DNA of 64,000 nucleotides from Peribacillus muralis (lineage in GTDB: Bacteria; Bacillota; Bacilli; Bacillales; DSM-1321): the NCBI RefSeq assembly GCF_001645685.2, contig NZ_CP017080.1, positions 1,292,001 through 1,356,000 on the forward strand, written 5' to 3'. Positions 2,739 to 58,845 of this stretch are shown in pieces. Position 1 is the first letter of the stretch, and every line of letters starts with the position of its first letter. The translations under genes were made by a program, and so were the position numbers. The notes under the pieces are model-generated. The model had not been told where the DNA came from, searched no databases, and saw nothing but the letters and a program-made list of their open reading frames with translations.

Positions 2739-2770
2739 ACTCTCCACCTCCGAATATGGTTCAATCAGGG

Positions 2771-3349
2771 TCAATCCTTGAATTTGGCACGATAAAACCG
2801 TTTAACTTTATTTTCGGTTTTTCTTTCAGGAATTTGAAGGGTTTCAAGCAGGTTTATGAAAATATTTTTTCCGGCTTTTGCGTCCGTCACTTCATATTCA
2901 AGCTCATAGTCCTCTTGATCCAAATAAGAACTATGATCTAACACAAGCAACCCTTCCTTGTAAGGAAATTCAAACCTGTCCGTCTCCAGCGTCCCAAAAC
3001 AAGTGAAGGCATCCGTATCCAACCCATCTGCAGTGAGGAGGCTTAGAATCGACCCTTCAGGGAATGTGCCATCCTTCAAAAATGCGATGGCTGCTTCGGC
3101 CGTGATGGCTTGATTCGTTTCCAACAATCCCTCTTTGGCTGGCTGCTTTAATGTCAGTTCATAACGATCGTTTTTTTTTCGGATCCGAAGCGCAGAACTT
3201 CGATTTTTCAATTCGAAATCAGATGTATCGAAATAATGATTTTGCTGAGATGTGAAACGCGCCGCTTCGATCTCGAAGTGATCAATCAGCTTCCGAAATT
3301 CTTTTTCATCCAAAAGGTTTTTAAACTCGATTTCAATATGCTGGTTCAT
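2771..3349 (-). CDS. yjbK: CYTH-domain protein YjbK
   Basis: 192 aa. The N-terminal EIEFKN motif is the ExExK signature of CYTH (CyaB/thiamine triphosphatase-like) proteins. Other charged strands follow, such as SALRIRKKNDRYELTLKQP and the late ELEYEVTD. This fold binds a triphosphate and divalent metal in a tunnel; the actual substrate in Bacillus is unclear. It is upstream of, and probably co-transcribed with, yjbJ, and divergent from relQ, as in B. subtilis. AAAGGAAG precedes the ATG. The 295-bp gap to relQ holds no gene. Confidence 0.88.
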   Translation of the reverse strand: MNQHIEIEFKNLLDEKEFRKLIDHFEIEAARFTSQQNHYFDTSDFELKNRSSALRIRKKNDRYELTLKQPAKEGLLETNQAITAEAAIAFLKDGTFPEGSILSLLTADGLDTDAFTCFGTLETDRFEFPYKEGLLVLDHSSYLDQEDYELEYEVTDAKAGKNIFINLLETLQIPERKTENKVKRFYRAKFKD

Positions 3350-3650
3350 GTATTTCTTCCTTTCTGATCTTCCAATTAAATTAACTATATAAGAACCAAT
3401 TCAGCTGTCAAATGGAAGGCAATAATTTTTTACTATTATACTTGAATATTTAGGAATCATTTGCAGGTTATGATAAAATATAAACGTTGAACATATGAGA
3501 AGAAATCATACATATTTTTTTGTCATTGAAGAACTTTACCAAATAAAGAAGTGAAAGCAGTGTGTCATAGGACCGCTGGATAAGGAGAGAGCGTTCTGCC
3601 CATACCAGAGTTGAACAGGCGCTTTTTAGATAGATATAGGTGGTGTGGCA

Positions 3651-8370: not shown

Positions 8371-8425
8371 CCTTGCATGATGCAAACCTGTTCAGAAAAC
8401 GGTGTTTTTATTGAAGAAAATTTGA

Positions 8426-38848: not shown

Positions 38849-39823
38849 ATGAGGCCAAAAATCTATATTACAAGGAAATTGCCGGAACAAATCATCGAAG
38901 GTTTAAGAGGGAATTTTGATATCAGGATGTGGGACGAAGAGGAGATACCGGTACCTAGAGAAGTCCTTGAAGAAGAAGTGAAGGAAGTTGATGGGCTGCT
39001 TTGCTTGTTGACGGAACAAATTGATGAGTCACTGATCAATCGGGCGGTTAACCTGAAAATCATCGCCAATATGGCAGTTGGCCATAATAATATCGATGTT
39101 CACAGTGCCACGGAGCGGGGCATCATGGTAACGAACACACCTGGAGTTTTGACGGAAACGACAGCTGACTTAACCTTTGGCTTACTGCTGGCAACGGCCA
39201 GAAGGATGATGGAGGCAGCGGATTATTTAAAAAGCGGAAAATGGGAAACATGGTCTCCGATGCAGCTGACTGGGCAAGATGTACACGGTGCGACGCTGGG
39301 GATCATCGGCTTGGGAAGGATAGGGGAAGCACTTGCCAAAAGAGCGAAGGGCTTCGATATGAACTTGGTTTATTTTAATCGAAGCCGTAAATATGAACAG
39401 GAAAAGGAATTAGGCATCGATTATCTGCCCATTGAAAAGCTGCTACAAGTATCGGATTTTGTGTGTATCTTGCTCCCGCTTACACCGGATACCGCCTATA
39501 TGATTGGCAAGGAGCAGCTGAAATTAATGAAGAGGACGAGTGTACTCATAAATACGGCAAGAGGCGGAATCATCGATGAAAAAGCGTTATATCAGGCCTT
39601 GAAGGATCGTGACATCTGGGCAGCAGGGTTGGACGTATTTGAAGAAGAGCCCGTTTCTGTCGATCACCCGCTGCTAACATTACCCAATGTCGTTACATTA
39701 CCGCATATCGGGAGTGCCAGCATAGCCACAAGAATGAAAATGGCAGCCCTAGCCGTGCAAAATCTGGCGGATGGATTGGCGGGAGACACCCCCCGTAATT
39801 TAGTATTGTTGAATAAAACATAA
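38849..39823 (+). CDS. D-2-hydroxyacid dehydrogenase (YvcT-like glyoxylate/hydroxypyruvate reductase)
   Basis: 324 aa. The NAD(P)-binding motif is ATLGIIGLGRIGEALAKRAKG; catalytic residues are in NTARGGIIDE (Arg), VFEEEPVS (Glu) and LPHIGSASIATR (His). ANMAVGHNNIDVHSATERGI is typical of glyoxylate/hydroxypyruvate reductases. It reduces 2-keto acids such as glyoxylate or hydroxypyruvate, and related 2-ketogluconate is possible. TAGGAGG precedes the ATG. A repeat cluster follows its stop. Confidence 0.9.
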   Translation: MRPKIYITRKLPEQIIEGLRGNFDIRMWDEEEIPVPREVLEEEVKEVDGLLCLLTEQIDESLINRAVNLKIIANMAVGHNNIDVHSATERGIMVTNTPGVLTETTADLTFGLLLATARRMMEAADYLKSGKWETWSPMQLTGQDVHGATLGIIGLGRIGEALAKRAKGFDMNLVYFNRSRKYEQEKELGIDYLPIEKLLQVSDFVCILLPLTPDTAYMIGKEQLKLMKRTSVLINTARGGIIDEKALYQALKDRDIWAAGLDVFEEEPVSVDHPLLTLPNVVTLPHIGSASIATRMKMAALAVQNLADGLAGDTPRNLVLLNKT

Positions 39824-45164: not shown

Positions 45165-46175
45165 TCACATCTCGGCTACGGAATTTTGGATGATGTTTTC
45201 AGTTGGAATGATCGTATGCTGGTTCGGGCTCGAAGCGTTCTGGATCTTTGCAAAAAGGATCTGTGTCGCAACATCTCCTAGCTTCCTCACGGGAATTTCC
45301 TTACAAGTCAGAGATGGGGAAAGGAATGGATGTAAATGTGAATTGCTGTAACCAACAATCGATAGGTCTTTTGGAATGGAGATTCCATTTTCCGCTGCCA
45401 TCTTATAAATACTCATCACTTTAAGATCATCAGTGGCAAAAATGGCCGTAGGTCGGTTATTTCCCAGTATTTTTTTGGCTGACTGATAAGCGGCATCAAT
45501 GGTATAGCCACTATTTAAGGTCCATTCATCCTTTAGTGGGAGCCCATTTGCTTTCATGCATGATTTATATCCTTCCAATCGGTCGATGGATACATGATAA
45601 TCGAGTGGAGAATGCAGGCAGGCAATATCACGGTGTCCTTTATCGATCAAGTATTGCGTCAAGTCATAACTGTCAATGTAGTTATTCGTGTCTACAGAAA
45701 AAACATTTTTATAATCTCCCTCAACCTTGCCAATGACCACTATAGGAATATTGAATGGGTCAATTTGTTGGAAAAAGTTCTCATTAGCAGGGGAACTTAG
45801 CATAATTATCCCTTTTATGAATTTCTCTTTTATTTTTCTAATGCATTTTTGAAGCTCGTCCTGGCTGTTTTTTGCAGTCTGTAAAATCACATCGAAGTTT
45901 AGTTCTTCGGCATTGGTTGATATGGCATGGATAATTTCAGAGAAAAAAGGGTTATTGGCGGTAGTCTTGGTAGAACGAGATAGCACCATGATGGCATCAA
46001 ATCCTGAGGATAGGGCCCTGGCTAATTTACTGGGATGATAATTCAATTGCTCAATTGCTTTCAACACGCGCTCACGCGATTCTTCAGAGATATTGCTTTG
46101 ATTGTTGAGTACTCGTGATACGGTGGATTTTGAAACCATTGCAACACGGGCGATATCGTAAATGGTGTGTCCCAA
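45165..46175 (-). CDS. LacI-family repressor of the glucoside operon
   Basis: 336 aa. The helix-turn-helix is TIYDIARVAMVSKSTVSRVL, followed by the hinge YHPSKLARALSSG, then a periplasmic-binding-like sugar domain with SVDTNNYIDSYDLTQYLID, RPTAIFATDDLKVM and SIVGYSN. Start TTG 46175 follows AGGAGGGGGG; a longer frame lacks a site. It is divergent from the ycj-like operon, so it most likely represses that operon and responds to a sugar or sugar phosphate. Three CG-centred palindromes lie in the intergenic gap. Confidence 0.9.
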   Translation of the reverse strand: MGHTIYDIARVAMVSKSTVSRVLNNQSNISEESRERVLKAIEQLNYHPSKLARALSSGFDAIMVLSRSTKTTANNPFFSEIIHAISTNAEELNFDVILQTAKNSQDELQKCIRKIKEKFIKGIIMLSSPANENFFQQIDPFNIPIVVIGKVEGDYKNVFSVDTNNYIDSYDLTQYLIDKGHRDIACLHSPLDYHVSIDRLEGYKSCMKANGLPLKDEWTLNSGYTIDAAYQSAKKILGNNRPTAIFATDDLKVMSIYKMAAENGISIPKDLSIVGYSNSHLHPFLSPSLTCKEIPVRKLGDVATQILFAKIQNASSPNQHTIIPTENIIQNSVAEM

Positions 46176-46412
46176 TAATGTTCCCCCCCTCCTGGTATGG
46201 TTCTGTATGATCTTTTCTTCTTGATTTTTAAGGTTCATAGTACATTTGGTTCATGAACGTGAAAGAGAGCGGTTTCATAGGGTAAATTATATGGGTGAAA
46301 CGTGATGCTGGCAATAGTAATTTTATAACCGATAGGCAAGCGGGCGAAGAAAGCTGATTTAGCTTGTATGCGAAACTCATAAATAAAGCAGGAATTGCTG
46401 CTTTGGTTTTCG

Positions 46413-46503
46413 TTGACAGAAAGCGCTTACTGTATTATATTTTGTTTGTGGGAGCGGTACCACGAACAAAATATCAATCTATCAATTTATGGAAACGGTT
46501 CCA
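46413..46503 (+). promoter_or_regulatory. Promoter with three CG-centred operator/cre-like palindromes
   Basis: TTGACA (46413-46418), 17 nt, TATATT (46436-46441). The spacer holds AGAAAGCGCTTACT (46418-46431), a cre-like site. Further sites are GTGGGAGCGGTACCAC (46448-46463) inside a longer inverted repeat (46442-46470, 10 of 11 pairs), and TGGAAACGGTTCCA (46490-46503), just before the ribosome site. CcpA and the LacI-type repressor both recognise such palindromes, so I cannot assign each site. Confidence 0.75.
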
Positions 46504-46517
46504 AGGAGGAGGCGTAT

Positions 46518-48203
46518 ATGGAATATATCAAACAAAGGCTGTCTGCAATATATGGGGAATCTGAAGCACAAAAGATATGGACTGGCCTGAGAGGGAAGCT
46601 TCTAAAAGCAAAACAAACACATCATAAAGAACGAAAACAAAGATGGGATGAAAAAGATGTTGTATTAATTACTTATTCGGATCAATTTCAAGAGGAAGGA
46701 AAGCCTACATTGGCGACTTTTGAGAAGGTATTCGATCGTTATTTGGCAGACAATTTCGAAATTGTCCATCTTCTTCCTTTTTATCCCTATTCGTCAGACG
46801 ATGGTTTTTCGGTCATGGATTATAAAAAGGTCAATCCGATAGCAGGAGATTGGGGAGATATAGAAAAACTATCCAAGAAAACGAGAATCATGTTTGATTA
46901 TGTGTGCAATCATATTTCGGCAAAGAGTGATTGGTTTAAAGAATACATAAAAGGCAACCCCGAATATGCTGACTTTTTTACGGAGATGGACCAGGATACA
47001 GATCTGAGTGCAGTAACGAGACCAAGACCCACTCCAGTCCTCACCAAGTTTAAACTGGAGGATGGTACAGAAAAATATATTTGGACAACGTTCAGTGAAG
47101 ACCAAATAGATTTGAACTTCAAAAATCCATTTGTATTATTGAAAATGATCGATGTCCTATTATTCTATGTTGAGCATGGTGCGGAATACATCAGGCTAGA
47201 TGCGGTCGGATTCATGTGGAAGGAAGTTGGAAGTACGTGCATCCATCTTGAAAAAACACACCAAATCATCAAACTATTCCGTGATATTGTTGAGGAAGTA
47301 GCTAAAGGAACGGTCATCATCACGGAAACAAATGTACCTCATGAAGACAATATTTCATATTTCGGCAATGGAAGCGATGAAGCACATATGGTTTATCAAT
47401 TTCCCCTACCGCCGCTTGTGCTATATACGATCAATCGCGGCAATGGGAGCGCTCTTACGCAGTGGGCAAGAAACATACAGCCAGCGGGCGATGAAACAAC
47501 CTTCTTCAATTTCCTTGCATCCCACGATGGGATTGGCTTGAATCCTATTCGCGGCATCATCCCGGAAGAAGAAATTCTTGCACTGGTATCTGAACTAAAA
47601 GAAGAAGGGGCTAAGGTGAACTATAAAAAAAATCCGGATAACACACAAAGTCCATATGAGATAAATGTGACATACTTGGACGCATTGAATAAACGGTCGG
47701 ATGATGATGACTTAAGGATGAAACGGTTTTTATCGGCACATTCCATTTTATTATCACTTCAGGGAGTACCAGCGATATACATCCAAAGTATATTGGGGTC
47801 CAGAAATGATTATGATGGTGTGGCCAAAACAGGAATGAACCGTTCCATTAACCGTCAAAAGTATAGATTGGAAGAAATTGAAGCTGAGCTGACAAAACCT
47901 AGTACGTTGCGAAGCAAGATATATCGGGAATTAACGAACATCATTCAGATAAGAAAAGCGGAACACCTATTCCACCCGGATGTGCCAATGGAAGTGTTGG
48001 AAAAAGGAGAAAAGATATTTGCGCTAACGAGGGGCACTGACTCCCGTGAAAGCCTTACCATTATTCATAATATTGCAAATGAACCGGTTGATGTCGAATT
48101 ATCGGGGGAATTTATCAATTTAATGACTGGGGAAGACCTGATTTTCATCAATACTGTAACACTGGATCCTTATCAATTCCTATGGTTGAAATCAAGTAAC
48201 TAG
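46518..48203 (+). CDS. GH13_18 phosphorylase (glucosylglycerate/sucrose phosphorylase type, YcjM-like)
   Basis: 561 aa. A GH13 subfamily 18 barrel: LLPFYPYSSDDGFSVMDY near the start, nucleophile Asp about 228 in YIRLDAVGFMWKEVGSTCIH, acid/base Glu about 270 in IITETNVPHEDNISYFGNG, and transition-state Asp about 337 in ASHDGIGLNPIRG. It breaks an alpha-glucoside with phosphate to give alpha-glucose 1-phosphate and an aglycone. The operon's glycerate kinase and the YcjM-like order favour glucosylglycerate as substrate over sucrose; this is inference. Start ATG 46518 follows AAGGAGGAGG. Confidence 0.88.
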   Translation: MEYIKQRLSAIYGESEAQKIWTGLRGKLLKAKQTHHKERKQRWDEKDVVLITYSDQFQEEGKPTLATFEKVFDRYLADNFEIVHLLPFYPYSSDDGFSVMDYKKVNPIAGDWGDIEKLSKKTRIMFDYVCNHISAKSDWFKEYIKGNPEYADFFTEMDQDTDLSAVTRPRPTPVLTKFKLEDGTEKYIWTTFSEDQIDLNFKNPFVLLKMIDVLLFYVEHGAEYIRLDAVGFMWKEVGSTCIHLEKTHQIIKLFRDIVEEVAKGTVIITETNVPHEDNISYFGNGSDEAHMVYQFPLPPLVLYTINRGNGSALTQWARNIQPAGDETTFFNFLASHDGIGLNPIRGIIPEEEILALVSELKEEGAKVNYKKNPDNTQSPYEINVTYLDALNKRSDDDDLRMKRFLSAHSILLSLQGVPAIYIQSILGSRNDYDGVAKTGMNRSINRQKYRLEEIEAELTKPSTLRSKIYRELTNIIQIRKAEHLFHPDVPMEVLEKGEKIFALTRGTDSRESLTIIHNIANEPVDVELSGEFINLMTGEDLIFINTVTLDPYQFLWLKSSN

Positions 48204-48211
48204 GAGGCAAA

Positions 48212-49519
48212 ATGATGAAATTCAAAATCATGGGTGTAGCGTTGATCTTTGGTTTAAGCATTGCGTTATCAGCCTGCAGCGGCGGAAGCGACAAGGCAGG
48301 CACAGATGAGAACATAACAATCGAGTTCATGCATTCCTCCGTTGAACAGGAGCGCCTGGCGGTGATCAACAAGCTGGTCGATAAATTCGAGAAAGAAAAC
48401 CCGGCTATTAAAATTAAGCAAGTTCCAGTTCAGGAAGATTCATATAATACGAAGATCATCACGTTAGCAAGCGCAGGAAAACTTCCTGCAGTCCTTGAAG
48501 TTGGACAGGATTATGCAAAGGTAATGGATAAGGAGCAGCTCATTGATAAAGAGGCCGTCACCAAAACGCTTGAGAAATCGGGTAAAACGGACTTCTATGA
48601 CGGCGCTTTAAAATTAGTGACTCCAGAAGATGGAAAGGGTTATACCGGAATTCCGATAAGTGGCTGGGTGCAAGGAATTTGGTTCAATAAAGAAATGCTG
48701 GCCTCCAAAGGTTTTGAAGAGCCAAAAACCTGGGATGACGTATTGAAGGTCGCAAAGGCATTTACGGACAGTGGCAGTAAAAAGTACGGCATCGCTTTGC
48801 CAACCGTTGAAGGTGGATTCTCCGAGCAAGCATTCTCTCAATTTGCGCTATCGAACGATGCAAATGTACTTGATGGCAAAGGAAAGCTGGATATGAATAA
48901 AAAATCGATGAAAGAAGCGCTAACTTATTATAAAGAACTAGCGCGATACACGATGCCAGGTTCAAATGATACCACCGAGGTTAAAGATGCTTTCATGAAT
49001 GGAACGACGCCGATGGCTGTATATTCGACTTATATCCTGCCTTCCGTTCATGCGGAAGGTGATGCAGACAATATCGGTTTTGCTATTCCGCAACAAAAAA
49101 CAAAAGCGGTGTATGGAACGGTTTCTGCAATCACCATTTCATCGGGTTTGGAAGATGCACAAAAAGAAGCGGCAGAGAAATTCACGGCGTTTTTGTCTGA
49201 GCCGGAAAATATGACAAATTGGGTATTGATGTCGCCAGGCGGTGCACAGCCAGTTAATAAAGCGGTTACAGAAAACGCTGCCTATCAAGAAAATGAAGTG
49301 GTGAAATCCTTTGGGGATTTATCGACGGAAATTGCGACATCTTTTAACGACATCCAAGTCTTCGGTCTGGCAGGTGGGAAAAACTACTTGAAGATGGGTG
49401 ATATTACGAGCTCAGGCGCCATTTCCACATTAGTGAATGATATTACAGTTGGCGGGAAAAGCGTTGATGGAGAACTAAAAACCGCTGAAAAGAAAATCAA
49501 AGATGTCTTAAGCAAATGA
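48212..49519 (+). CDS. Sugar ABC transporter substrate-binding lipoprotein (YcjN-like)
   Basis: 435 aa. The signal ends in lipobox LSACSGG, so it is exported and lipid-anchored. The mature part is a cluster B sugar-binding protein: ITIEFMHSSVEQERLAVINK, AVLEVGQDYAKVMDKEQL, GIPISGWVQGIWFNKEML and FMNGTTPMAVYSTYILP. It should capture the glucoside used by the operon. GGAGG precedes the ATG, 8 nt past the phosphorylase stop. Confidence 0.9.
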   Translation: MMKFKIMGVALIFGLSIALSACSGGSDKAGTDENITIEFMHSSVEQERLAVINKLVDKFEKENPAIKIKQVPVQEDSYNTKIITLASAGKLPAVLEVGQDYAKVMDKEQLIDKEAVTKTLEKSGKTDFYDGALKLVTPEDGKGYTGIPISGWVQGIWFNKEMLASKGFEEPKTWDDVLKVAKAFTDSGSKKYGIALPTVEGGFSEQAFSQFALSNDANVLDGKGKLDMNKKSMKEALTYYKELARYTMPGSNDTTEVKDAFMNGTTPMAVYSTYILPSVHAEGDADNIGFAIPQQKTKAVYGTVSAITISSGLEDAQKEAAEKFTAFLSEPENMTNWVLMSPGGAQPVNKAVTENAAYQENEVVKSFGDLSTEIATSFNDIQVFGLAGGKNYLKMGDITSSGAISTLVNDITVGGKSVDGELKTAEKKIKDVLSK

Positions 49520-49664
49520 GGTTCAAGGAAAGTTAACATACGGCAAGACCCTCTATTTCATTTATTAAGTCCAAGGCCAGGAAGATTCCATGATCCCTCA
49601 TGGGTCATATGGTTTTGGGGCATCTCATAGGGGAAAAAAGGTATGTATTCAGGGGGGCGTGAAC

Positions 49665-50540
49665 ATGAAAAACAGAGGGAAATCGGATTTGAAGCTGGCA
49701 TGGGTACTGCTTTTTCCAAGTGTCTTTTTAGTGCTTTTGCTTGTGGCATATCCAATGATATCCAATATAAAGATTAGTTTTTTTGATCTACCAATCAATC
49801 CAAGGCTAGATGCAACCTTTGTCGGGTTGAAAAACTATACGGACATACTGACAGATGTCGAATTCATTAAATCATTAGGAATTACCGTTTTATACATGAT
49901 CCTGGCAGTGGCAGGGAGTACGGCATTGGGATTGGCCGTGGCAATCTTCTTTAACCGCCCCTTCAAATTCCGCAAAGCAGCCCGGTCATTAATTATCCTG
50001 TCTTATGTAACCCCTTCGATTTCCTTGGTTTTTGCCTGGAAGTACATGTTCAATAACGGATATGGCGTCATAAATCATTTAGGGGTGGACGTTTTTCATT
50101 TATTTGATAAGGCGCCCCTATGGTTTGACAATCCTGTCAGCAGCTTCATACTAGTCGTGCTTTTTGCAATATGGAGATACTTCCCATATGCATTCATCTC
50201 GTTCCTGGCAATCCTGCAGACAGTGGATTCCAGTTTATATGAAGCAGCGGAGATCGATGGGGCTTCGACCTGGGAGAAGTTCAAGAATGTGACCATCCCG
50301 GCGATCATGCCTGTACTGATAACGATAATAACACTTCGTTCCATCTGGTTATTCTATATGTTCACAGATGTATATCTGTTGACGAACAAAGTGAACATCA
50401 TCGGCATTTACTTGTACGAAACGGCATTTGCCTTTAATGATCTTGGCAAGGCCGCATCCATCTCTGTCATTCTTTTCATTATCCTTTCCATCGTAATAAT
50501 AGCATCAAGAAAGCGGGTGAAATTCAATGGCAATGGCTAG
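49665..50540 (+). CDS. Sugar ABC transporter permease (YcjO-like, MalF type)
   Basis: 291 aa with about six membrane helices and the EAA loop EAAEIDGASTWEKFKNVTIP, which contacts the ATPase. Start ATG 49665 follows GGGGGG; the preceding 145-nt gap after the binding-protein gene is long for this operon and holds no gene. It overlaps the second permease gene by 14 nt. Together they form the channel for the glucoside. Confidence 0.9.
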   Translation: MKNRGKSDLKLAWVLLFPSVFLVLLLVAYPMISNIKISFFDLPINPRLDATFVGLKNYTDILTDVEFIKSLGITVLYMILAVAGSTALGLAVAIFFNRPFKFRKAARSLIILSYVTPSISLVFAWKYMFNNGYGVINHLGVDVFHLFDKAPLWFDNPVSSFILVVLFAIWRYFPYAFISFLAILQTVDSSLYEAAEIDGASTWEKFKNVTIPAIMPVLITIITLRSIWLFYMFTDVYLLTNKVNIIGIYLYETAFAFNDLGKAASISVILFIILSIVIIASRKRVKFNGNG

Positions 50541-51381
50541 CAGTAAGAAGAATAAAGCAGCAAGGAAGATCGGGTTTTATACCGGGCTGATCGCCTTATT
50601 GGTCGTTTCCTTATTTCCATTTTTCATCATGTTGATGACTTCCTTCAAGAACTCCAAGGAAGCGGTTGCCACTGACCCAACTTTTTTTCCGAAGGATTGG
50701 ACATTTCAGCATTATTTAGATATTTTCAATCCGGATATCTTTCCTTTCCTAGCTTATTTTAAAAATAGTTTAACAGTGGCCCTCACAGCGGCGTTGCTGT
50801 CAGTTTTAATTGGCATTTTCGGGGCCTACGCCCTTTCGAAACTGAATTTTATCGGAAAAACGACCATTAATGCAAGTTTCTATACCGTGTATATGCTGTC
50901 TGGGATTTTGCTTGTCGTGCCTCTATTCAAGATCATATCCGGTCTCGGTTTGTATGATACGAAAACAGCGTTGATCATCACAATGATCGTCCAAACGCTT
51001 CCGACTTCAATTTTCATGTTGAAAAGTTATTTTGACACCATTCCGGATGACTTGGAGGAAGCCGCGATGATCGATGGGTTGAACCGTGTCCAGATCATTT
51101 TCTATATCATCATCCCTCTAGCTCTATCAGGGATCATATCCGTTTTTGTCTATTCATTCATGGTCGCCTGGAATGATTACTTGTTCGCATCAATATTCCT
51201 GTCGGATTCTGTCAACTTCACGCTCCCAATCGGCTTGAATGCCTTGTTCAGTACACCAGATTATATATGGGGAAGAATGATGGCAGCCTCACTTATAACC
51301 GCACTTCCTGTTGTAGCAATGTATGCAATCTCTGAGCACTTCATAAAAGGAAACATGACCGAGGGCGGAGTGAAGGGATAA
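50527..51381 (+). CDS. Sugar ABC transporter permease (YcjP-like, MalG type)
   Basis: 284 aa, six predicted helices; the EAA motif is EEAAMIDGLNRVQIIFYIIIP. Overlaps the first permease. No ATPase gene is in the operon, so the importer probably uses a shared ATPase such as MsmX encoded elsewhere. Confidence 0.9.
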   Translation: MAMASSKKNKAARKIGFYTGLIALLVVSLFPFFIMLMTSFKNSKEAVATDPTFFPKDWTFQHYLDIFNPDIFPFLAYFKNSLTVALTAALLSVLIGIFGAYALSKLNFIGKTTINASFYTVYMLSGILLVVPLFKIISGLGLYDTKTALIITMIVQTLPTSIFMLKSYFDTIPDDLEEAAMIDGLNRVQIIFYIIIPLALSGIISVFVYSFMVAWNDYLFASIFLSDSVNFTLPIGLNALFSTPDYIWGRMMAASLITALPVVAMYAISEHFIKGNMTEGGVKG

Positions 51382-51415
51382 TCGAAAACAATCAAATAAA
51401 CGAGAGAAGGTATAC

Positions 51416-52477
51416 ATGATGAAAAAACTAGTTGCGATAAAACCAAGGGTTGCAGCATTGATCAGTTATGAAGAAAGTGCCGTCAAGCCGAATGAAGTGA
51501 AAATAGATGTGCAGTTCGCCTCACCTAAACATGGCACTGAAGTCATCGACTTTCGCGGAATGACACCTTTCATGGATGAGGATTTTTCTGAAGAGTGGCG
51601 GATGTTCATGCCGAGGGAAGAAGGCTCGACTAAAGGGATCGTATTTGGGGAATTCCAGCTTGGGAATATGGTTGTAGGTCGAATCATCGAAATGGGAACG
51701 GATGTAACGGAATACCAGTTGGGAGATACGGTTTGTACATATGGACCCATCATGGAGACGGTCATTGTGAATGCGGTGGATAACCACCGATTACGCAAAA
51801 TGCCAGAGGGGGCAAAATGGCAAAATGCGGTTTGCTATGACCCTGCACAATTTGCCATGAGCGGTGTACGCGATGCCAATGTACGCGCAGGTGATTACGT
51901 CGTTGTGGTTGGGCTTGGTGCAATCGGCCAATTGGCAATCCAGCTGGCAAAAAAAGCGGGTGCGAGTATCGTTGTCGGTGTTGATCCCTTGAATCAACGC
52001 AGGGAAATCGCTCGGCGTAACGGGGCGGATGTTTGTTTTGATCCGACCAATGATGATATAGGGCTTGAAGTGAAAAAGCTGACTAATAAAATAGGGGCGG
52101 ATTCCATCATTGAGACAAGTGGAAATGCGGCAGCGCTTCAAGCAGCTCTGAAGGGCATTGCGTATGGCGGCACCATTTCCTACGTGGCCTTTGGGAAGGC
52201 CTTTCCTGCAGGTTTGAATTTTGGGAGGGAGGCCCATTTCAATAATGCGAAAATTGTGTTCTCCCGCGCAGCAAGCGAGCCTAATCCAGATTATCCACGC
52301 TGGAACAGAAAGCGCATTGAAGAAACCTGCTGGGAGCTGCTGATGAATGGCTATTTAAATTGTGAGGATATCATCGAACCAATCGTTACATTTGACCAGA
52401 GTGCAGAAGCTTACATGGAATATATCGATCAGCACCCGGAATTAAGTATCAAAATGGGAATTGACTATAAAAAATGA
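51416..52477 (+). CDS. MDR-family dehydrogenase (YcjQ-like)
   Basis: 353 aa medium-chain dehydrogenase. The NAD(P)-binding motif is VVVGLGAIGQLAIQLAKKAG, followed by the VGVDPLNQRREIARRNGADV segment. The classical GHE zinc segment is not obvious; CYDPAQFAMSGVRDA lies where substrate contacts occur. E. coli YcjQ oxidises/reduces the C3 position of glucosides/gulosides with NAD, and the same role is inferred from the gene order here. It follows the permeases by 34 nt. Confidence 0.82.
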   Translation: MMKKLVAIKPRVAALISYEESAVKPNEVKIDVQFASPKHGTEVIDFRGMTPFMDEDFSEEWRMFMPREEGSTKGIVFGEFQLGNMVVGRIIEMGTDVTEYQLGDTVCTYGPIMETVIVNAVDNHRLRKMPEGAKWQNAVCYDPAQFAMSGVRDANVRAGDYVVVVGLGAIGQLAIQLAKKAGASIVVGVDPLNQRREIARRNGADVCFDPTNDDIGLEVKKLTNKIGADSIIETSGNAAALQAALKGIAYGGTISYVAFGKAFPAGLNFGREAHFNNAKIVFSRAASEPNPDYPRWNRKRIEETCWELLMNGYLNCEDIIEPIVTFDQSAEAYMEYIDQHPELSIKMGIDYKK

Positions 52478-52531
52478 ATCTTTATCGGGTGAAGATCCAT
52501 GTTGGAATACTTGTGAATGGGGGATATGTTA

Positions 52532-53326
52532 ATGAAAATCGGTACACAGGATCAGGCGTTTTTTCCGAGGGATTTGAAAGAAAAATTCCGTTACTTAAAA
52601 GAGGCAGGCTTTGAAGGATTTGAAATCGATGGCAAACTACTTGTCGATAATGTGGAAGAAGTGAAGGACGCCGTTGCGGAGACAGGGATTCCAGTAACGA
52701 CTGCCTGCGGGGGCTACACTGGCTGGATCGGTGACTTCAACGAGGAACGCAGGCTCAACGGATTGGCTGAAATCAAAAAAATTCTTGAGGCGCTCAAAGA
52801 AGTGGGAGGGAAGGGGATTGTCGTTCCAGCTGCCTGGGGCATGTTCACATACCGCTTGCCGCCAATGCATTCTCCTAGAAGCATGGAGGCAGATAGGAGG
52901 GCCGTAACAGATTCCCTGATTTACTTGGAAAGAATCGCGAAAGAAACCGGGACAACGATATTCCTTGAACCTTTGAATCGCTATCAAGATCATATGATCA
53001 ATACGCTCGCAGATGCAAGGAGTTATATAGAAGAAAACGAGTTGAACAACGTGAAAATCATCGCGGATTTCTATCATATGAACATTGAAGAAGATGATAT
53101 ATCCGAGGCACTGCATATGAATCAGGATTTGGTGCGGCATGTTCATCTGGCTGATAACCACCGTTTTCAGCCAGGCAGCGGTTCATTGGACTTCAAGCGT
53201 CACTTTAATCAGCTTAAAGAAGACGGGTATGTTGGCTTTTTAACCATCGAATGCCGTATAAGGGGAAATGATCCGAAAGCGGAGTATATGAAGGCATTAC
53301 ATTACCTAAAGGAATCATTGGGCTAA
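52532..53326 (+). CDS. TIM-barrel sugar epimerase/isomerase (YcjR-like)
   Basis: 264 aa, AP endonuclease 2-like barrel. Likely metal ligands are in IFLEPLNRYQDHM, IIADFYHMNIEEDDIS, LVRHVHLADNHRFQPG and FLTIECRIRG. E. coli YcjR epimerises 3-keto-glucosides at C4. Start ATG 52532 is six bases after GGGGGAT; an in-frame ATG lies 15 nt upstream. It is followed 15 nt later by the Gfo/Idh gene. Confidence 0.83.
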   Translation: MKIGTQDQAFFPRDLKEKFRYLKEAGFEGFEIDGKLLVDNVEEVKDAVAETGIPVTTACGGYTGWIGDFNEERRLNGLAEIKKILEALKEVGGKGIVVPAAWGMFTYRLPPMHSPRSMEADRRAVTDSLIYLERIAKETGTTIFLEPLNRYQDHMINTLADARSYIEENELNNVKIIADFYHMNIEEDDISEALHMNQDLVRHVHLADNHRFQPGSGSLDFKRHFNQLKEDGYVGFLTIECRIRGNDPKAEYMKALHYLKESLG

Positions 53327-53341
53327 AGGGGCTGATTAGAG

Positions 53342-54376
53342 ATGAAGAAGAAAATTGCGATAATTGGTGGAGGGCAAATGGCAGAAAAGGTCCATGTTTC
53401 ATACTACCGTACCAGGAATGAGGTTGAAATTGTCGCAGTTGTCGGCCCAAATTTCGAACGGACAAAGGATTTTGCAAAACGGAACGAAATCGCCCGATAC
53501 TATACGGATGTAGAGGAAATGTTTCAAGCGGAAAAGCCGGACATCGTCAGTGTCTGCACGCCAAATAAGTACCATCATGAACATGTCATGAAGGCTTTGG
53601 AGCATGGCTGTCATGTTCTGTGCGAGAAGCCGCCTTCCATTTCAAGCCAGGAAGCAAGGCAGATGCAGGAAGTGGCTGAAGGAAATAACCTCATTCTCGC
53701 TTATAATTTTCACCATCGCTTTGCAGAAGATGTTAAAATCATGCAGCAAAAAGTGGCGGAAGGCTTACTTGGAGAGGTTTATGTCGTAAAAGCAAAAGCG
53801 CTGCGCCGAAGCGGTGTACCTGGTTGGGGGAATTTCACTAACAAAGATGCGCAGGGCGGCGGGCCCTTGATCGATTTGGGCATCCACATGCTCGATGCTG
53901 CCCTCCATGTTTTAGGTTATCCGAAAGTCGAAAAGGTAACAGCAAAAATGTTTCAAAAAATCGGCACGAAAAAATCGCACGGAACTTTTGGTGAATGGGA
54001 TCCAAACAAGTATGAAGTGGAGGATTCCCTGTTTGGGTTCATAGAGCTTGAAGGCGGGTGCTTGCTGCAAATCGAGACTTCATTTGCTCTGAATATAAAA
54101 GAAACATCCATCATGAATGTGGAATTCCATGGGGATGAGGCGGGTGCAACCCTGTTTCCTGCCCATATTCATTCTGATCGAAAAGGGGAATTGGTGACGA
54201 TCTTGAATAGGGAGACAGCCGATCCAGACAGGCTACAGAAAGGAATGGCTGCCTTTGTTGATAAATGTCTAGGCAAAGAGGTCATGGTGGCTGATGGAAG
54301 AGAAGGTTACTTGATCATGCAACTCGTCGAAGCTCTCTATCAATCTGCTGAAAAAGGTGAAAGCATAACCATATGA
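53342..54376 (+). CDS. Gfo/Idh/MocA dehydrogenase (YcjS-like)
   Basis: 344 aa. N-terminal Rossmann fold KIAIIGGGQMAEKVHVSYY, catalytic HVLCEKPPSIS lysine motif and C-terminal GGGPLIDLGIHMLDAALHVL. In E. coli YcjS works with YcjQ and YcjR on the sugar ring at C3. Overlaps the GH65 gene by 4 nt, so tightly coupled. Confidence 0.87.
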   Translation: MKKKIAIIGGGQMAEKVHVSYYRTRNEVEIVAVVGPNFERTKDFAKRNEIARYYTDVEEMFQAEKPDIVSVCTPNKYHHEHVMKALEHGCHVLCEKPPSISSQEARQMQEVAEGNNLILAYNFHHRFAEDVKIMQQKVAEGLLGEVYVVKAKALRRSGVPGWGNFTNKDAQGGGPLIDLGIHMLDAALHVLGYPKVEKVTAKMFQKIGTKKSHGTFGEWDPNKYEVEDSLFGFIELEGGCLLQIETSFALNIKETSIMNVEFHGDEAGATLFPAHIHSDRKGELVTILNRETADPDRLQKGMAAFVDKCLGKEVMVADGREGYLIMQLVEALYQSAEKGESITI

Positions 54377-56601
54377 AAAAATTAGATGAAAATAGATTCG
54401 ATACGCGTTATATAAATAAATTTGCAAGTTTAATGACTGTAGGCAACGGATATTTCGGTCTGCGTGCTTCTCATGAAGAAAATTATGTAGATCAAACAAG
54501 AGGAATGTATGTTGCAGGGATATATAATAAAGCTACAGCCAATGAACCGTCCGATTTAGTCAATTTGCCAGATATGGTGGGCATGAATATTGAGCTTGAT
54601 GGAGAGAATTTTTCCTTATTAACAGGAGAAATCCTGTCCTATAAACGCCAGCTGAACCTTGAAAACGGCGAATTGCGACGTGATATTTTATGGAAAAGTA
54701 GAACCGGTTCACGGTTCCGCCTTACATTTCAGCGTTTTGCAGCAAAAAACGACCTCCATGTTCTTGCGACTAAATTGACGGTAACTTCTTTGGACAAACC
54801 TGCCCAAATGAAGATCGTGACTGGAATCAATGCACAGCAAACGAATTTCGGGAGACAGCATTTGATTGAAGAAAAGGTTCGTGTTGTGGAAGGGGACCTG
54901 CTCCAGGGAATCTATAAAACGACCGAATCAGGGCATATGATCGCCCTTGCCGCATGTTGCACTTGTTCATTGCAAGGAGAGGTAGGCCACGCGGCAAAAA
55001 ATAGGCAGCTGCTTACGACCATTAAGCAGGATCTCCTCGCTGAAACTCCTTTCGTTCTTGAAAAAATGGGCGTCATTTATACCTCGCTGGATGGTGATTT
55101 AAGGGGGGAAAGCCCTGAAGAAGCAAGTGAAGCCGCCCTTAGAAGCTGCTCTGCTGCTGGATATGATGCGTTGCTGCATAAATCGGCAGGAGAGTGGGCG
55201 CAATTTTGGATGGAAAAGCGCATCAAAGTGTCATCCGCGAGGGTTTTTGACCAACTGGCACTCGATTTTTCCGTCTATCAGCTGGAGGTCATGACACCTG
55301 CCCATGATGAACGGTTTAGCGTAGGTGCAAAGGGTTTGACGGGAGAAGGGTATAAAGGTCATGTTTTTTGGGATACGGAAATATTCATAACACCCTTCCA
55401 TCTGTTCACTGAGCCCAAAAAAGCGAAAAAGCTTTTGCGTTACCGTTATCTGCATCTGAAGCAGGCGATGGGGAAAGCTGCATCCAATGGATATGAAGGT
55501 GCTTTATTCCCTTGGGAAAGTGCTTTTACAGGTGAAGAAGAAACACCTGAATTTGCTGCTATTAACATTAAAACCGGTAAGCGGCAAAAGGTGGCCTCAG
55601 CCTTGGCGGAGCACCATATTGTTGCAGACATTGCCTATACAGTGGTGGAATATTACCAAAATACATTGGATGATGCATTCATGAAAAAAGAGGGGCTGGA
55701 GCTTCTAAAGGAAACGAGCCGGTTTTGGATCAGCCGGGCCGCGGAAGAAAATGGCCAACTTGTTATCAAGGATGTCATAGGACCGGATGAGTACACGGAG
55801 CACGTCAACAATAATGCCTTTACCAATTATATGGCTTGGTACAATGTCGAGCAGGCGCTGTTTTTCATGGGTAAATTTGGAGATGTTGATCATCAATTAA
55901 AGGATCGGGGCCATGAGTTTTTGAAACGCTTATATTTGCCCAAGGCCAATGATGATAAAATCATCCCCCAAGATGATACGTTTTTGAGCAAGCCCGAGAT
56001 CGACTTATCGCGGTACAAACAAGCTCAGGGCAGTCAGGGCATCCTTATGGATTATTCACGTCAAGAAGTGAATGAGATGCAAATCCTGAAACAGGCGGAT
56101 GTCGTCATGCTGCTCTACTTGTTACCGGATTTATTTCCAAAGGATATAATCTCTGAAAATCTGCATTATTATGAGGAGCATACCATTCACGATTCTTCCC
56201 TTAGTAAAGCGATTCATGCCATAGTTGCCGCGCGGGCTGGGGATATCGATAAGGCATACGGTTTTTTCCAGGAAAGCTGTTTAATCGATTTGGGACCGAA
56301 TCCCCTTTCCTCTGATGAGGGGCTTCATGCAGCATCCCTTGGTGCCATCTGGATGGCGGCAATGTTTGGCTTTGCTAATATATCCATTAAGGATCAGCGG
56401 TTAAGTTTGGACCCTAAGCTTCCTTCAGAATGGTCAGAACTTACCTTTCCGTTCATTTTCCAAGGATCTCGATTACATATTTCCCTAACCCATAAACAAG
56501 TCGAGATTACCAAGGTTTCGGGTGATGATGTATGCATAGAACTAAATGGGGCTGAATTTCTCGTATCCAACAAACTCGAAGTGGAACTTCAATATATATA
56601 A
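54373..56601 (+). CDS. GH65 alpha-glucoside phosphorylase (YcjT-like)
   Basis: 742 aa, the size of GH65 phosphorylases. N-terminal beta domain, then the (alpha/alpha)6 barrel with KGLTGEGYKGHVFWDTEIFI (acceptor loop and phosphate site) and general acid Glu about 473 in DVIGPDEYTEHVNNNAFTN. It converts a disaccharide plus phosphate to beta-glucose 1-phosphate with inversion. E. coli YcjT acts on kojibiose; this enzyme may be specific for kojibiose or another alpha-linked disaccharide. The beta-phosphoglucomutase at the operon end would use its product. Confidence 0.9.
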   Translation: MKKLDENRFDTRYINKFASLMTVGNGYFGLRASHEENYVDQTRGMYVAGIYNKATANEPSDLVNLPDMVGMNIELDGENFSLLTGEILSYKRQLNLENGELRRDILWKSRTGSRFRLTFQRFAAKNDLHVLATKLTVTSLDKPAQMKIVTGINAQQTNFGRQHLIEEKVRVVEGDLLQGIYKTTESGHMIALAACCTCSLQGEVGHAAKNRQLLTTIKQDLLAETPFVLEKMGVIYTSLDGDLRGESPEEASEAALRSCSAAGYDALLHKSAGEWAQFWMEKRIKVSSARVFDQLALDFSVYQLEVMTPAHDERFSVGAKGLTGEGYKGHVFWDTEIFITPFHLFTEPKKAKKLLRYRYLHLKQAMGKAASNGYEGALFPWESAFTGEEETPEFAAINIKTGKRQKVASALAEHHIVADIAYTVVEYYQNTLDDAFMKKEGLELLKETSRFWISRAAEENGQLVIKDVIGPDEYTEHVNNNAFTNYMAWYNVEQALFFMGKFGDVDHQLKDRGHEFLKRLYLPKANDDKIIPQDDTFLSKPEIDLSRYKQAQGSQGILMDYSRQEVNEMQILKQADVVMLLYLLPDLFPKDIISENLHYYEEHTIHDSSLSKAIHAIVAARAGDIDKAYGFFQESCLIDLGPNPLSSDEGLHAASLGAIWMAAMFGFANISIKDQRLSLDPKLPSEWSELTFPFIFQGSRLHISLTHKQVEITKVSGDDVCIELNGAEFLVSNKLEVELQYI

Positions 56602-56669
56602 TTATCCATTTCAGTACTAGAAGAGGCGTTCATTCTTGCAAGCGTTCATTCATAAAATGGGAGGCAAAC

Positions 56670-57815
56670 ATGAAAGTTGTCATTGCACCAGATTCATTTA
56701 AAGAGAGTTTACCAGCAGACGAAGTGGCAAGGGCCATTCAAGCTGGATTTCAATCCATTTTCCCGCAAGCGGAGTATCATTTGCTTCCAATTGCAGACGG
56801 CGGTGAAGGTACCGTCAAAGCTTTGGTATCCGCGCATAAGGGAAGGATGGAGAGCATATTCGTTACAGGTCCGCTTGGAATTCCGGTAGAAGCGAAAATA
56901 GCATTCTCGAATGAAGGCAAGACCGCTTTTATCGAAATGGCGGAGGCTTGCGGCTTACATCTTGTACCGATTGATCGGCGAAATCCTTTGCATACCACTT
57001 CCTTTGGTGTGGGGGAGCTGATGCTTCATGCGCTGAATCAGGGGGCCGCGGAACTAATCATTGGAGTGGGCGGCAGCTCAACGAATGATGGAGGTGTGGG
57101 CATGGCTTCCGCGCTTGGTTATGAATTTTTTGATGAACAAGGAAAGACGGTGAAGGGTAATGGCAAGGATCTATTTCGAATAACTTCAATGTCTGATCGC
57201 AATCGTAATCGGCGTTTGGACTCCGTGAAAATAACAGTGGCGGCAGATGTCGATAACCCCCTGACGGGCAATAATGGTGCAACGTATATTTATGGACCGC
57301 AAAAAGGGCTGCCGAAAGAAATGTTGAATGAAATGGATCATGCCATGGGAAGGTTTTATCAAATCGCAGGCAGCTTTATGAAGGTGGATGTCTCCTCCTT
57401 GCCGGGAAGCGGTGCAGGCGGAGGGATGGGGGCAGGTCTGCTTTTATTCACAGGAGCTCAACTAAAGAAAGGTATTGATCTCGTGCTGGAGCAGCTAAAG
57501 GTGAAAGAGATTTGCCAAGACGCGGATATCGTGATCGTCGGTGAAGGAAAAATAGATGGCCAAACAATTTTTGGAAAAGCTCCTGCAGGCGTAGCTAAAT
57601 GTGCGCCGCGAAAAGCAAAGGTAATAGCGATTTGCGGCAGTGTGGGTGAAGGTTCTGAAGCCCTTTACAATCATGGCTTTACTGCGATTTTCCCCACCAT
57701 TCCTGCCATGCTGCCAATTGAACACATTCTAAGCGGTGCATTCGCGAATATTGAGAGAACATCTCGTAATGTTGCAGCACTGCTTCGAAATGAGAGGGAC
57801 GGATTTAATGGATGA
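56670..57815 (+). CDS. glxK: Glycerate kinase (GlxK/GarK family)
   Basis: 381 aa. Family signatures: PDSFKESLPADEVARAI at the start, PIADGGEGTVKALV, GVGGSSTNDGGVGMASALG and the C-terminal IVGEGKIDGQTIFGKAP. It phosphorylates D-glycerate (to 2-phosphoglycerate in this family). GGAGG precedes the ATG. It is inserted between the GH65 and beta-phosphoglucomutase genes and is absent from the E. coli ycj operon, so it explains how glycerate released from glucosylglycerate would enter glycolysis. Confidence 0.92.
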   Translation: MKVVIAPDSFKESLPADEVARAIQAGFQSIFPQAEYHLLPIADGGEGTVKALVSAHKGRMESIFVTGPLGIPVEAKIAFSNEGKTAFIEMAEACGLHLVPIDRRNPLHTTSFGVGELMLHALNQGAAELIIGVGGSSTNDGGVGMASALGYEFFDEQGKTVKGNGKDLFRITSMSDRNRNRRLDSVKITVAADVDNPLTGNNGATYIYGPQKGLPKEMLNEMDHAMGRFYQIAGSFMKVDVSSLPGSGAGGGMGAGLLLFTGAQLKKGIDLVLEQLKVKEICQDADIVIVGEGKIDGQTIFGKAPAGVAKCAPRKAKVIAICGSVGEGSEALYNHGFTAIFPTIPAMLPIEHILSGAFANIERTSRNVAALLRNERDGFNG

Positions 57816-58506
57816 AAAATTTATAGATGCTGTAGTATTTGACCTTGATGGTGTCATAACGGATACAGCGCATTATCATTTCCTGGCTTGGCGCGAAATG
57901 GCTCGTGAGATGAACATCGAAATTGACGAAGTATTTAACGAAAGGCTAAAGGGTGTAAGCCGCATGGCTTCACTCGAGCTTATCTTAGAAGAAGGCAATC
58001 GACAAAACGACTTCACGTTACATGAAAAAGAAACCATGGCGGAAAAAAAGAATCAACATTATTGCCAGTTTCTGAACCATTTGACGCCTCAAGATATCCT
58101 GCCGGGAATAGTGGAGCTGATTTCCGCCATTAAAAGTGAAGGTGTTCCGATTGGTCTTGCATCCGTTTCCAAAAATGCACTGACAGTTTTGCGGGCACTG
58201 CAGTTGGATAATACTTTTGATTATATTGTCGATGCTTCAAAAGTTAAAAAAACAAAACCCGATCCGGAAATCTTCCTCACTGCATGTAATCGGCTTGAGG
58301 CAGACCCGGAGCGTTCGATCGGTATTGAAGATGCCGCTGCCGGCATCGATTCGATCAAGGCAAGCAAAATGTTTGCCGTAGGTGTGGGGAATACCCTTTA
58401 CAAATCCGATTATCAAGTGGCTGCAACAAAAGGACTCAAGTGGGAAAATATCAAGTCTGAATATCAAACTTGGAGAAATATGCAGTCCATAAATATAACG
58501 AGCTAA
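57808..58506 (+). CDS. pgmB: Beta-phosphoglucomutase (YcjU/PgmB)
   Basis: 232 aa HAD protein. The nucleophile motif is VVFDLDGVITDTAHYHFLAW, typical of beta-phosphoglucomutase, then the cap with NERLKGVSRMASLEL, GLASVSKNA (motif II), KKTKPDPEIFL (Lys motif) and IGIEDAAAGIDSIK. It converts beta-glucose 1-phosphate to glucose 6-phosphate. Start ATG 57808 overlaps the glxK end by 8 nt; a longer frame would start inside glxK. Last gene of the operon, followed by a terminator. Confidence 0.92.
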   Translation: MDEKFIDAVVFDLDGVITDTAHYHFLAWREMAREMNIEIDEVFNERLKGVSRMASLELILEEGNRQNDFTLHEKETMAEKKNQHYCQFLNHLTPQDILPGIVELISAIKSEGVPIGLASVSKNALTVLRALQLDNTFDYIVDASKVKKTKPDPEIFLTACNRLEADPERSIGIEDAAAGIDSIKASKMFAVGVGNTLYKSDYQVAATKGLKWENIKSEYQTWRNMQSINITS

Positions 58507-58517
58507 AGGCTGGTTCC

Positions 58518-58557
58518 AACCCCGCCCCCTTCATCGGAGGACGGGGTTTTTTTTTAT
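58518..58557 (+). terminator. Terminator of the ycj-like operon
   Basis: Arms AACCCCG (58518-58524) and CGGGGTT (58542-58548) with further GC pairing inside and a run of T. Confidence 0.8.
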
Positions 58558-58750
58558 ATTCATGAGGAAGAAGTACGTTTTGAACGGCAATTTCCACAAT
58601 CATGATCTTTTTTCTGGCAGGGTGATCTGGATGGGGAAATAGCCGGAAGTTCAATCTTCCTGATTCATAGTCTATCTTTCCGATTTCAAAATAACCAGTC
58701 TGGAAGTATTGTCCTGGTTTGTAATATAAGTGTAAAAGTAGCGGAGAAGT

Positions 58751-58786
58751 TGTAAACAAATGTTTACATTTCTAATAATGTACAGT
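58751..58786 (+). promoter_or_regulatory. Two palindromes and TATAAT upstream of SulP gene
   Basis: A perfect 18-bp palindrome TGTAAACAAATGTTTACA lies at 58751-58768. A second one, TACAGT-n10-ACTGTA, follows (58780-58801) and overlaps a TATAAT at 58800-58805. Such spacing suggests a regulator site over a promoter; the protein is not known. The MerR regulator after the SulP gene is one candidate. Confidence 0.5.
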
Positions 58787-58845
58787 TTTACGTTTTACTG
58801 TATAATGTTGAAGCATGTCAAATAACTTAACAAAGGAGAGTGCAC

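Follow-up and report, generated by a model that had tools for sequence, protein, structure and literature searches.

Positions 45165-58506 of the DNA analysed here, a 64,000-nucleotide window of the Peribacillus muralis genome (contig NZ_CP017080.1, positions 1292001-1356000; coordinates below count from the first letter of the window), correspond by sequence comparison to a complete and well conserved ycj operon, a Gram-positive variant of the Escherichia coli ycjMNOPQRSTU system with an added glycerate kinase gene. Across the loci compared, the ring-rewriting enzymes of this system (YcjQ, YcjR and YcjS) are tied to a glucosylglycerate phosphorylase (GGaP), which was found in 79 of 80 YcjR loci, and repeatedly to a glycerate kinase; therefore, the ycj substrate very probably contains glycerate. 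The operon probably serves to import a glycerate-capped glucoside, whose hexose would be rewritten to glucose and phosphorolysed and whose released glycerate would then be phosphorylated.

Operon structure and gene content

The operon comprises a divergent LacI-family gene and ten collinear plus-strand genes, all long open reading frames with the expected Pfam or NCBIfam families. Percentages are identities to the E. coli proteins, GH denotes a glycoside hydrolase family, ABC an ATP-binding cassette transporter and MDR a medium-chain dehydrogenase/reductase; in locus descriptions the letters M to U stand for the ycjM to ycjU orthologs and K for the glycerate kinase gene.

45165..46238, minus strand: divergent LacI-family repressor, YcjW ortholog (PF00356/PF13377; 57.8% to YcjW)
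46518..48203, plus strand: ycjM ortholog, GH13_18 protein of GGaP type (53.6% to YcjM; TETN at 269, loop-A Glu381)
48212..49519, plus strand: ycjN ortholog, ABC solute-binding protein (PF01547; 51.5% to YcjN)
49662..50540, plus strand: ycjO ortholog, ABC permease (PF00528; 70.0% to YcjO)
50527..51381, plus strand: ycjP ortholog, ABC permease (PF00528; 71.1% to YcjP)
51416..52477, plus strand: ycjQ ortholog, MDR dehydrogenase (PF00107; 71.7% to YcjQ)
52517..53326, plus strand: ycjR ortholog, 3-keto-glucoside 4-epimerase type, TIM barrel (PF01261; 68.7% to YcjR)
53342..54376, plus strand: ycjS ortholog, Gfo/Idh/MocA glucoside 3-dehydrogenase type (PF01408/PF02894; 56.7% to YcjS)
54373..56601, plus strand: ycjT ortholog, GH65 alpha-glucoside phosphorylase, kojibiose-phosphorylase-related, with an altered acceptor-side loop (PF03632; 51.0% to YcjT)
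56670..57815, plus strand: glycerate kinase (PF02595/TIGR00045)
57808..58506, plus strand: ycjU ortholog, beta-phosphoglucomutase (TIGR01990; 47.0% to YcjU)

The nine genes in common with E. coli YcjM-U are 47-72% identical and stand in the same order, which bears out the gene order proposed in a preliminary description of this DNA; the glycerate kinase that it placed between the GH65 and mutase genes is likewise there. The operon start that it gave, 46175, has to be moved, as this position falls inside the divergent LacI-family gene, a YcjW ortholog belonging to the system. Intergenic gaps are short or negative, the largest being N-O (142 nucleotides) and then T-K (68 nucleotides). Within the T-K gap, a scan of 46200-58800 gave no plus-strand promoter or terminator match, and the kinase and mutase genes overlap by 8 nucleotides; both suggest that the kinase is not separately transcribed, in agreement with its earlier description as built into the operon, and a separate transcript was dropped as a candidate.

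Several products could be assigned with further detail. The YcjR ortholog matches PDB entry 6wn6 best (420.8 bits, residues 2-265), establishing orthology to a solved enzyme, and its nearest named relatives, among the best 80 of 156, are from Peribacillus. The mutase scores 262.6 bits with TIGR01990, above the equivalog cut-off of 189.4, and the binding protein carries a lipobox-like LSAC near its N-terminus, spotted by eye in the translation. No ATPase (ycjV) was found among the open reading frames of 45165-58506, and one OB_MalK-type gene lies elsewhere in the genome; the missing ycjV is not decisive, since ycjV is a pseudogene in E. coli MG1655.

Specificity of the GH13_18 phosphorylase

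Two published fingerprints mark GGaP, a (T/S)ETN motif following the fifth barrel strand and a loop-A glutamate in place of glutamine (PMC7178133). Both occur in the window protein (TETN from residue 269 and Glu381), as they do, in the form TETN plus Glu, in 91/91 GGaP-like proteins of YcjR loci (79 loci, E. coli and 11 further stretches, seven of which repeat or adjoin the 79), and all nine sucrose phosphorylases, taken as the class-sample proteins above the TIGR03852 cut-off, show Gln together with PEIH or PEVH. The loop-A residue of six rows was read from the alignment, and the loop-A position itself follows the BaSP sequence and PDB alignments.

In a quick 38-row tree, which holds 18 of the 79 loci and was built without sucrose 6-phosphate and glucosylglycerol phosphorylases, the nine sucrose phosphorylases split off with a Shimodaira-Hasegawa approximate likelihood ratio test (SH-aLRT) value of 100, and the window protein falls on the YcjM side. 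The two families outside the tree, compared through PDB alignments only, reached at most 204 bits against the window protein, and TETN is present in none of the five shown. An identity as sucrose phosphorylase was dropped on the strength of the tree separation, the fingerprints and a TIGR03852 score of 242 bits, under the cut-off of 334. The GGaP type and tree placement expected in the preliminary description thus stand, and for a GGaP specificity of the 46518-48203 protein the support is close to the most that sequence can give.

Distribution of the operon and association with GGaP

YcjR was found in 7/398 class genomes, 8/36 genus genomes, 2/398 phylum genomes (at 1e-45) and 6/398 genomes from the phylum of a Buttiauxella, each count including the centre genome. 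The locus set consists of the best 80 of 156 YcjR relatives obtained by scanning a two-sequence YcjR alignment against named genomes, and it comprises 40 loci from Bacillales, 39 from Enterobacterales and one labelled Chryseobacterium. The single locus without GGaP (L077) begins at a contig end, and GH65 accompanies GGaP in 78 of the 79 GGaP-bearing loci. The locus labelled Chryseobacterium (L091) is an enteric-type ycj operon (Q 86% identical to E. coli) and probably represents a mislabelled or contaminated assembly.

T and K are directly adjacent in 28 of the 40 Bacillales loci (15 Bacillaceae, 11 Listeriaceae and 2 Fictibacillaceae, with a broken K frame in L075), and K is found in the cluster in 31/40, the other three being T-U-K (L052, L053) and T-K with broken frames (L096). 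Loci of Peribacillus, Fictibacillus, Gottfriedia and Listeria share the T-K-U layout. Therefore, the GGaP operon with a kinase is widespread in Bacillales and no curiosity of the window, and the rarity in bacilli that had been supposed for this combination does not hold. A Bacillus sp. and Listeria fleischmannii have also been placed in a YcjN cluster with gene neighbourhoods like that of E. coli (PMC11543891). In Listeria monocytogenes, lmo2837-2834, named ycjP, Q, R and S, are among strain-specific RNA-seq results with bile (PMC5808219).

The association with GGaP extends to cases in which the gene itself differs. In L056 and L099, GGaP is gone from its usual first place and a GGaP of 46-47% identity follows the mutase gene instead; in L072 and L087, a similar GGaP follows a different ABC transporter. 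These four fall in a different GGaP clade (SH-aLRT 100) and are the sole GGaPs below 50% identity among the 79 loci, indicating that the GGaP part was replaced and its function kept.

Starting from GGaP, 10/348 class-sample genomes were positive at 1e-100, and a kinase lies near GGaP in seven of these ten (P. muralis itself, G001, G079, G131, G239, G289 and G339), in G289 at 4.6 kb with a divergent LacI gene between; it was not in the fetched sequence of G035, of G056, where the contig ends near GGaP, or of G070. Five class-sample GGaP clusters lack YcjR, and three of them (L209, L206 and L207) carry enzymes for a second hexose, with none in L208 and L210. L209:3951-11348 encodes a phosphotransferase system (PTS) and a GH38 protein, closest to mannosylglycerate transporter and hydrolase models (both under cut-off), followed by GGaP and a kinase, and it may represent a route for mannosylglucosylglycerate breakdown. 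In L206, a GH125 alpha-mannosidase is the third gene after GGaP, and in L207 a group 1 glycosyltransferase (7031-8404) adjoins GGaP. A group 1 glycosyltransferase also adjoins GGaP in L211, from another class (2132-3472). It gives a full-length match to the mannosylglucosylglycerate synthase model, scoring 423 bits against a cut-off of 640, and the cluster further contains genes resembling Q, R, S, N, O, P and GH65 (30-48% identity). Lying beside phosphorylase and importer genes, the L211 glycosyltransferase may be degradative rather than biosynthetic.

Proposed pathway and the role of GH65

From gene content, orthology, fingerprints, operator conservation and gene association we infer the substrates and reactions in this organism, the order of the steps and the product of the kinase as follows. 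A YcjW-type repressor, possibly together with CcpA, would control a catabolic operon whose ABC transporter imports a glycerate-linked glucoside. YcjQ, R and S would oxidise the hexose at C3, epimerise it at C4 and re-reduce it, turning a non-gluco hexose into glucose. The biochemistry of these three enzymes is as known or annotated in E. coli, where YcjQ is recorded as D-guloside 3-dehydrogenase. By phosphorolysis of an alpha-1,2 linkage, the GH65 enzyme would release a glucosyl unit in the form of beta-glucose 1-phosphate, for conversion by the mutase to glucose 6-phosphate. From the glucosylglycerate core, GGaP would yield alpha-glucose 1-phosphate and D-glycerate, and the operonic kinase would phosphorylate the glycerate, feeding lower glycolysis.

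The smallest clusters bear on where the ring rewriting acts. L043 (N-O-P-Q-R-K-M) and L046 (M-N-O-P-Q-R) were found without S or T; Q, R and GGaP are their core, so the compound undergoing ring rewriting is probably converted to glucosylglycerate in the end.

The kojibiose phosphorylase motif is EEAPxx at positions 64, 392, 394, 402, 416 and 585 (PMC8537180). At these positions the window protein reads DEAPAL, E. coli YcjT EEAPAL and CsKP EEAPWE, so the aspartate at position 64 departs from the published motif; the kojibiose phosphorylase named in the preliminary description is supported as to the related family and the identity to YcjT, and not as to the motif. In 91 ycj-type GH65 rows, repeats included, the residue at CsKP position 416 is Ala in 89, window residue 404 is Arg in 90 and window residue 563, within a short insertion, is Arg in all 91. 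Arg404 and Arg563 could meet a carboxylate; their placement is impossible from the AlphaFold2 model (mean predicted local distance difference test score, pLDDT, 74.8), as residues 380-417, the loop of interest, have pLDDT below 50.

One possible reading is that two pathways run in parallel, with GH65 acting on kojibiose or kojibiosides, GGaP on glucosylglycerate, the kinase serving the second only and YcjQRS feeding either. Such a division would accommodate the E. coli records of YcjT as kojibiose phosphorylase and of YcjM as GGaP, the release of YcjW from DNA by 1 mM kojibiose (PMC6599011) and the occurrence of clusters without GH65 (L043, L046, L208 and L210). However, minimal medium with kojibiose gave no growth of E. 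coli, and a kojibiose derivative was suggested as the natural inducer of YcjW (PMC6599011); YcjN showed no kojibiose binding (PMC11543891); and GH65 accompanies GGaP in nearly all loci, as counted above, an association for which two unrelated substrates give no need.

A single linear route is offered here tentatively: the natural ycj substrate would be a hexosyl-(1-2)-glucosylglycerate handled successively by YcjQRS, GH65, GGaP and kinase. The outer hexose, perhaps gulo- or galacto-configured (the two are identical once C3 is oxidised), would be made into glucose by YcjQRS and removed by GH65 as beta-glucose 1-phosphate, after which GGaP would cleave the core and the kinase take the glycerate. 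This route would use every gene, and it fits the published suspicion about the inducer, of which kojibiosyl-glycerate would be one such derivative. By analogy, what the second-hexose enzymes do in other GGaP clusters could be done in ycj operons by GH65, acting on an alpha-1,2-glucosyl unit. Against it stand the absence of T from L043 and L046, the T of L044, which keeps a kojibiose-phosphorylase-like loop though its cluster has K and M, and the recorded activity of YcjT on kojibiose. A literature search for gulosyl-, galactosyl-, kojibiosyl- and glucosylglucosyl-glycerate turned up three papers, each dealing with mannosylglucosylglycerate alone.

The glycerate kinase and its origins

Import and breakdown of a glycerate-capped glucoside is the reading preferred here, with either role of GH65. 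That such clusters release glycerate is argued most strongly by the recruitment of different kinase lineages to one function. The operonic protein matches PF02595/TIGR00045 over its full length (467 bits against a cut-off of 168.45, residues 2-373) and reached neither the glycerate 2-kinase nor the 3-kinase equivalog cut-off (393 against 686 and 384 against 625). Clustered kinases fall into several separate clades, namely T-K-U, T-U-K (L052, L053), L041 with L042, K-M (L043, L044) and the long-branched L208-L210 from GGaP clusters without YcjR. A single origin was rejected with an approximately unbiased test p value (p-AU) of 3.6e-41 (27 of 52 rows constrained), and still rejected after removal of four long rows (p-AU 1.8e-5, 23 of 48 rows). 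For these tests the groups were named after the tree had been seen, the trees were quick, 12 near-duplicates were thinned, and L039 and L040 (non-operon rows inside the T-K-U clade) and L042 were left out; including L039 and L040 gives p-AU 3e-38, an unfair comparison as both sit inside that clade. The kinase trees omit L075 and both L096/L183 halves, as pieces with fewer than 300 residues aligned.

A housekeeping kinase merely placed in the operon, for example for glycerate of other pathways, is unlikely. Such a role would suit the observation that no full-length PF02595 gene other than the operonic one was found in the window's genome, and that the operonic copy is the sole PF02595 match in seven of 12 other genomes searched with an intact T-K pair (G434, G440, G441, G442, G446, G448 and G454). 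Yet the remaining five (G433, G438, G444, G452 and G455) have further PF02595 genes and still keep the operonic one, separate-clade kinases occupy different positions in such clusters (T-K-U, T-U-K, K-M and N-O-P-M-K), and the window kinase gene overlaps the mutase gene.

Other observations weigh against the preferred reading. Presence of a kinase in the genome is not specific, as a PF02595 gene is present in 26/26 ycj-bearing genomes searched and in 36/36 genus genomes. K is missing from the cluster in nine of 40 Bacillales loci, and among the 39 Enterobacterales loci only that of Limnobaculum (L085) has an operonic K, E. coli being without one. Of the seven class-sample genomes with YcjR, two showed no GGaP within the 19.5 kb fetched; in one of the two, L042, K lies beside R and S in this GGaP-free stretch. 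The operator described below was not seen at threshold in six of 77 loci (L049, L066, L092, L095, L103 and L126).

Some kinase loci deserve separate mention. At L042:9807-13013, YcjR- and YcjS-like genes accompany the glycerate kinase, while Q, GH65, the binding protein and GGaP were all without a match in the 19.5 kb fetched. L039 and L040 (G406, G423), from the same genus group as the window, have kinases 72-73% identical, with neither a YcjR match nor neighbouring ycj genes. The Limnobaculum allomyrinae locus, the sole one in Enterobacterales (1/39) with K in the T-K-U place, has an enteric-like operon and a long-branched kinase belonging with the T-K-U kinases of Bacillales, reflecting either an ancient gene or a transfer. 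The broken kinase frames of Listeria fleischmannii (L096, where GH65 is also broken) and Listeria rocourtiae (L075) point to decay or sequencing error. In the P. muralis genome, a second PF02595 match at 3911032-3911166 is a remnant of a kinase start (22 N-terminal residues by tblastn); ten-odd neighbours of the kinase of a relative (L213), searched for around it, gave no convincing match (E 0.4 or worse), so that the operonic gene took the place of an older kinase is no more than a guess. Upstream of the operon, a D-2-hydroxyacid dehydrogenase (PF02826) at 38849-39823 could use hydroxypyruvate or glycerate.

Regulation

The following sites flank the plus-strand genes; palindromes are listed without strand.

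46413..46441, plus strand: promoter-like TTGACA-17-TATATT, 11/12 consensus positions, top-scoring plus-strand site in 46200-58800
46418..46431: cre-like palindrome AGAAAGCGCTTACT within the promoter spacer, possible CcpA site
46449..46462: YcjW-type operator TGGGAGCGGTACCA, 7 bases past the -10 hexamer, kept in relatives
46490..46503: second LacI-type palindrome TGGAAACGGTTCCA, a weaker operator or cre, ahead of the ycjM-ortholog start codon
58518..58555, plus strand: likely terminator, an AACCCCG...CGGGGTT inverted repeat followed by nine T (by eye)

The promoter scan returned 30 sites against a shuffle mean of 26.7, that is, no excess over shuffles; the terminator repeat is not in the terminator scan output, which has a loop limit of 8. 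AGAAAGCGCTTACT is a candidate CcpA site by likeness to the cre consensus. The operator TGGGAGCGGTACCA is the sole match at one mismatch or fewer across the 5.0-Mb genome (none with a reversed control), and a genome-wide search for further operators of this type, as would mark a wider regulon, found none. Of 77 loci, 71 have it near the M or N start, 38 of them as an exact copy, 32 with two mismatches and a single one with one mismatch (0/77 with a shuffled control), L072, L077 and L087 being outside the count as they have no M or N above 50% identity. Its E. coli relative, TGGGACCGCTACCA, from which the window operator at 46449 differs at two positions, lies before ycjM (L001:5191) and at the ycjT-ycjU junction (L001:15119), and YcjW was mapped by ChIP-seq to sites before ycjM and at that junction (PMC6599011). 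The conservation of repressor and operator between two phyla suggests that the inducer is conserved too. Operation in the synthetic direction, with the phosphorylases making a compatible solute, would draw on the reversibility of phosphorolysis and on glucosylglycerate being a known osmolyte, but it is very improbable, as the ABC genes are of importer type, the repressor belongs to the LacI type, the promoter holds a cre-like site and the kinase would remove the glycerate acceptor, all of which points to breakdown.

Comparison with known systems

The E. coli ycj enzymes have been characterized singly, and a ligand of YcjN was not found (PMC11543891). New here are the occurrence of GGaP in nearly all YcjR loci, four times as a member of another clade, the rejection of a single kinase origin, the conservation across two phyla of a YcjW operator unique in its genome, and the finding that other GGaP clusters can carry second-hexose enzymes. 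The value of the comparison lies in what it says about the ycj substrate, a question that becomes testable with a short list of compounds and a bacillus with one operon, one operator and one full-length glycerate kinase. No description of a kinase inside a ycj operon was found in the open-licence literature, a set that excludes the primary ycj papers.

The E. coli ycj operon shares with the window all ten genes, the M-U order and the operator type, whereas the window has the added glycerate kinase and a cre-like site in its promoter and lacks ycjV and ompG. The repressor gene is divergent and adjacent in the window and downstream in E. coli, and of the two operator places in E. coli, the promoter and the ycjT-ycjU junction ahead of the mutase gene, the window has only the first. 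Compared with the kojibiose phosphorylase of Caldicellulosiruptor saccharolyticus (PDB 3wiq; 408 bits), the window GH65 protein agrees in family and in the EAP of the motif and differs in D for E at 64, A for W at 416, a changed loop and the conserved Arg404 and Arg563 (window numbering). The L209 cluster of mannosylglycerate type resembles the window in having GGaP followed by glycerate kinase, but has a mannosidase where the window has GH65, uses a PTS instead of an ABC transporter, and is without YcjQRS.

The interpretation in the preliminary description was mostly right, although a GGaP-glycerate kinase neighbourhood had already been published as a clue to GGaP specificity (PMC7178133). 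The neighbourhoods of Franceus and Desmet resemble the window in the GH13_18 fingerprints and the neighbouring glycerate kinase; in that paper the kinase is named together with glucosyl-3-phosphoglycerate synthase or phosphatase, whereas in the window it stands with an importer and ring-rewriting enzymes (PMC7178133).

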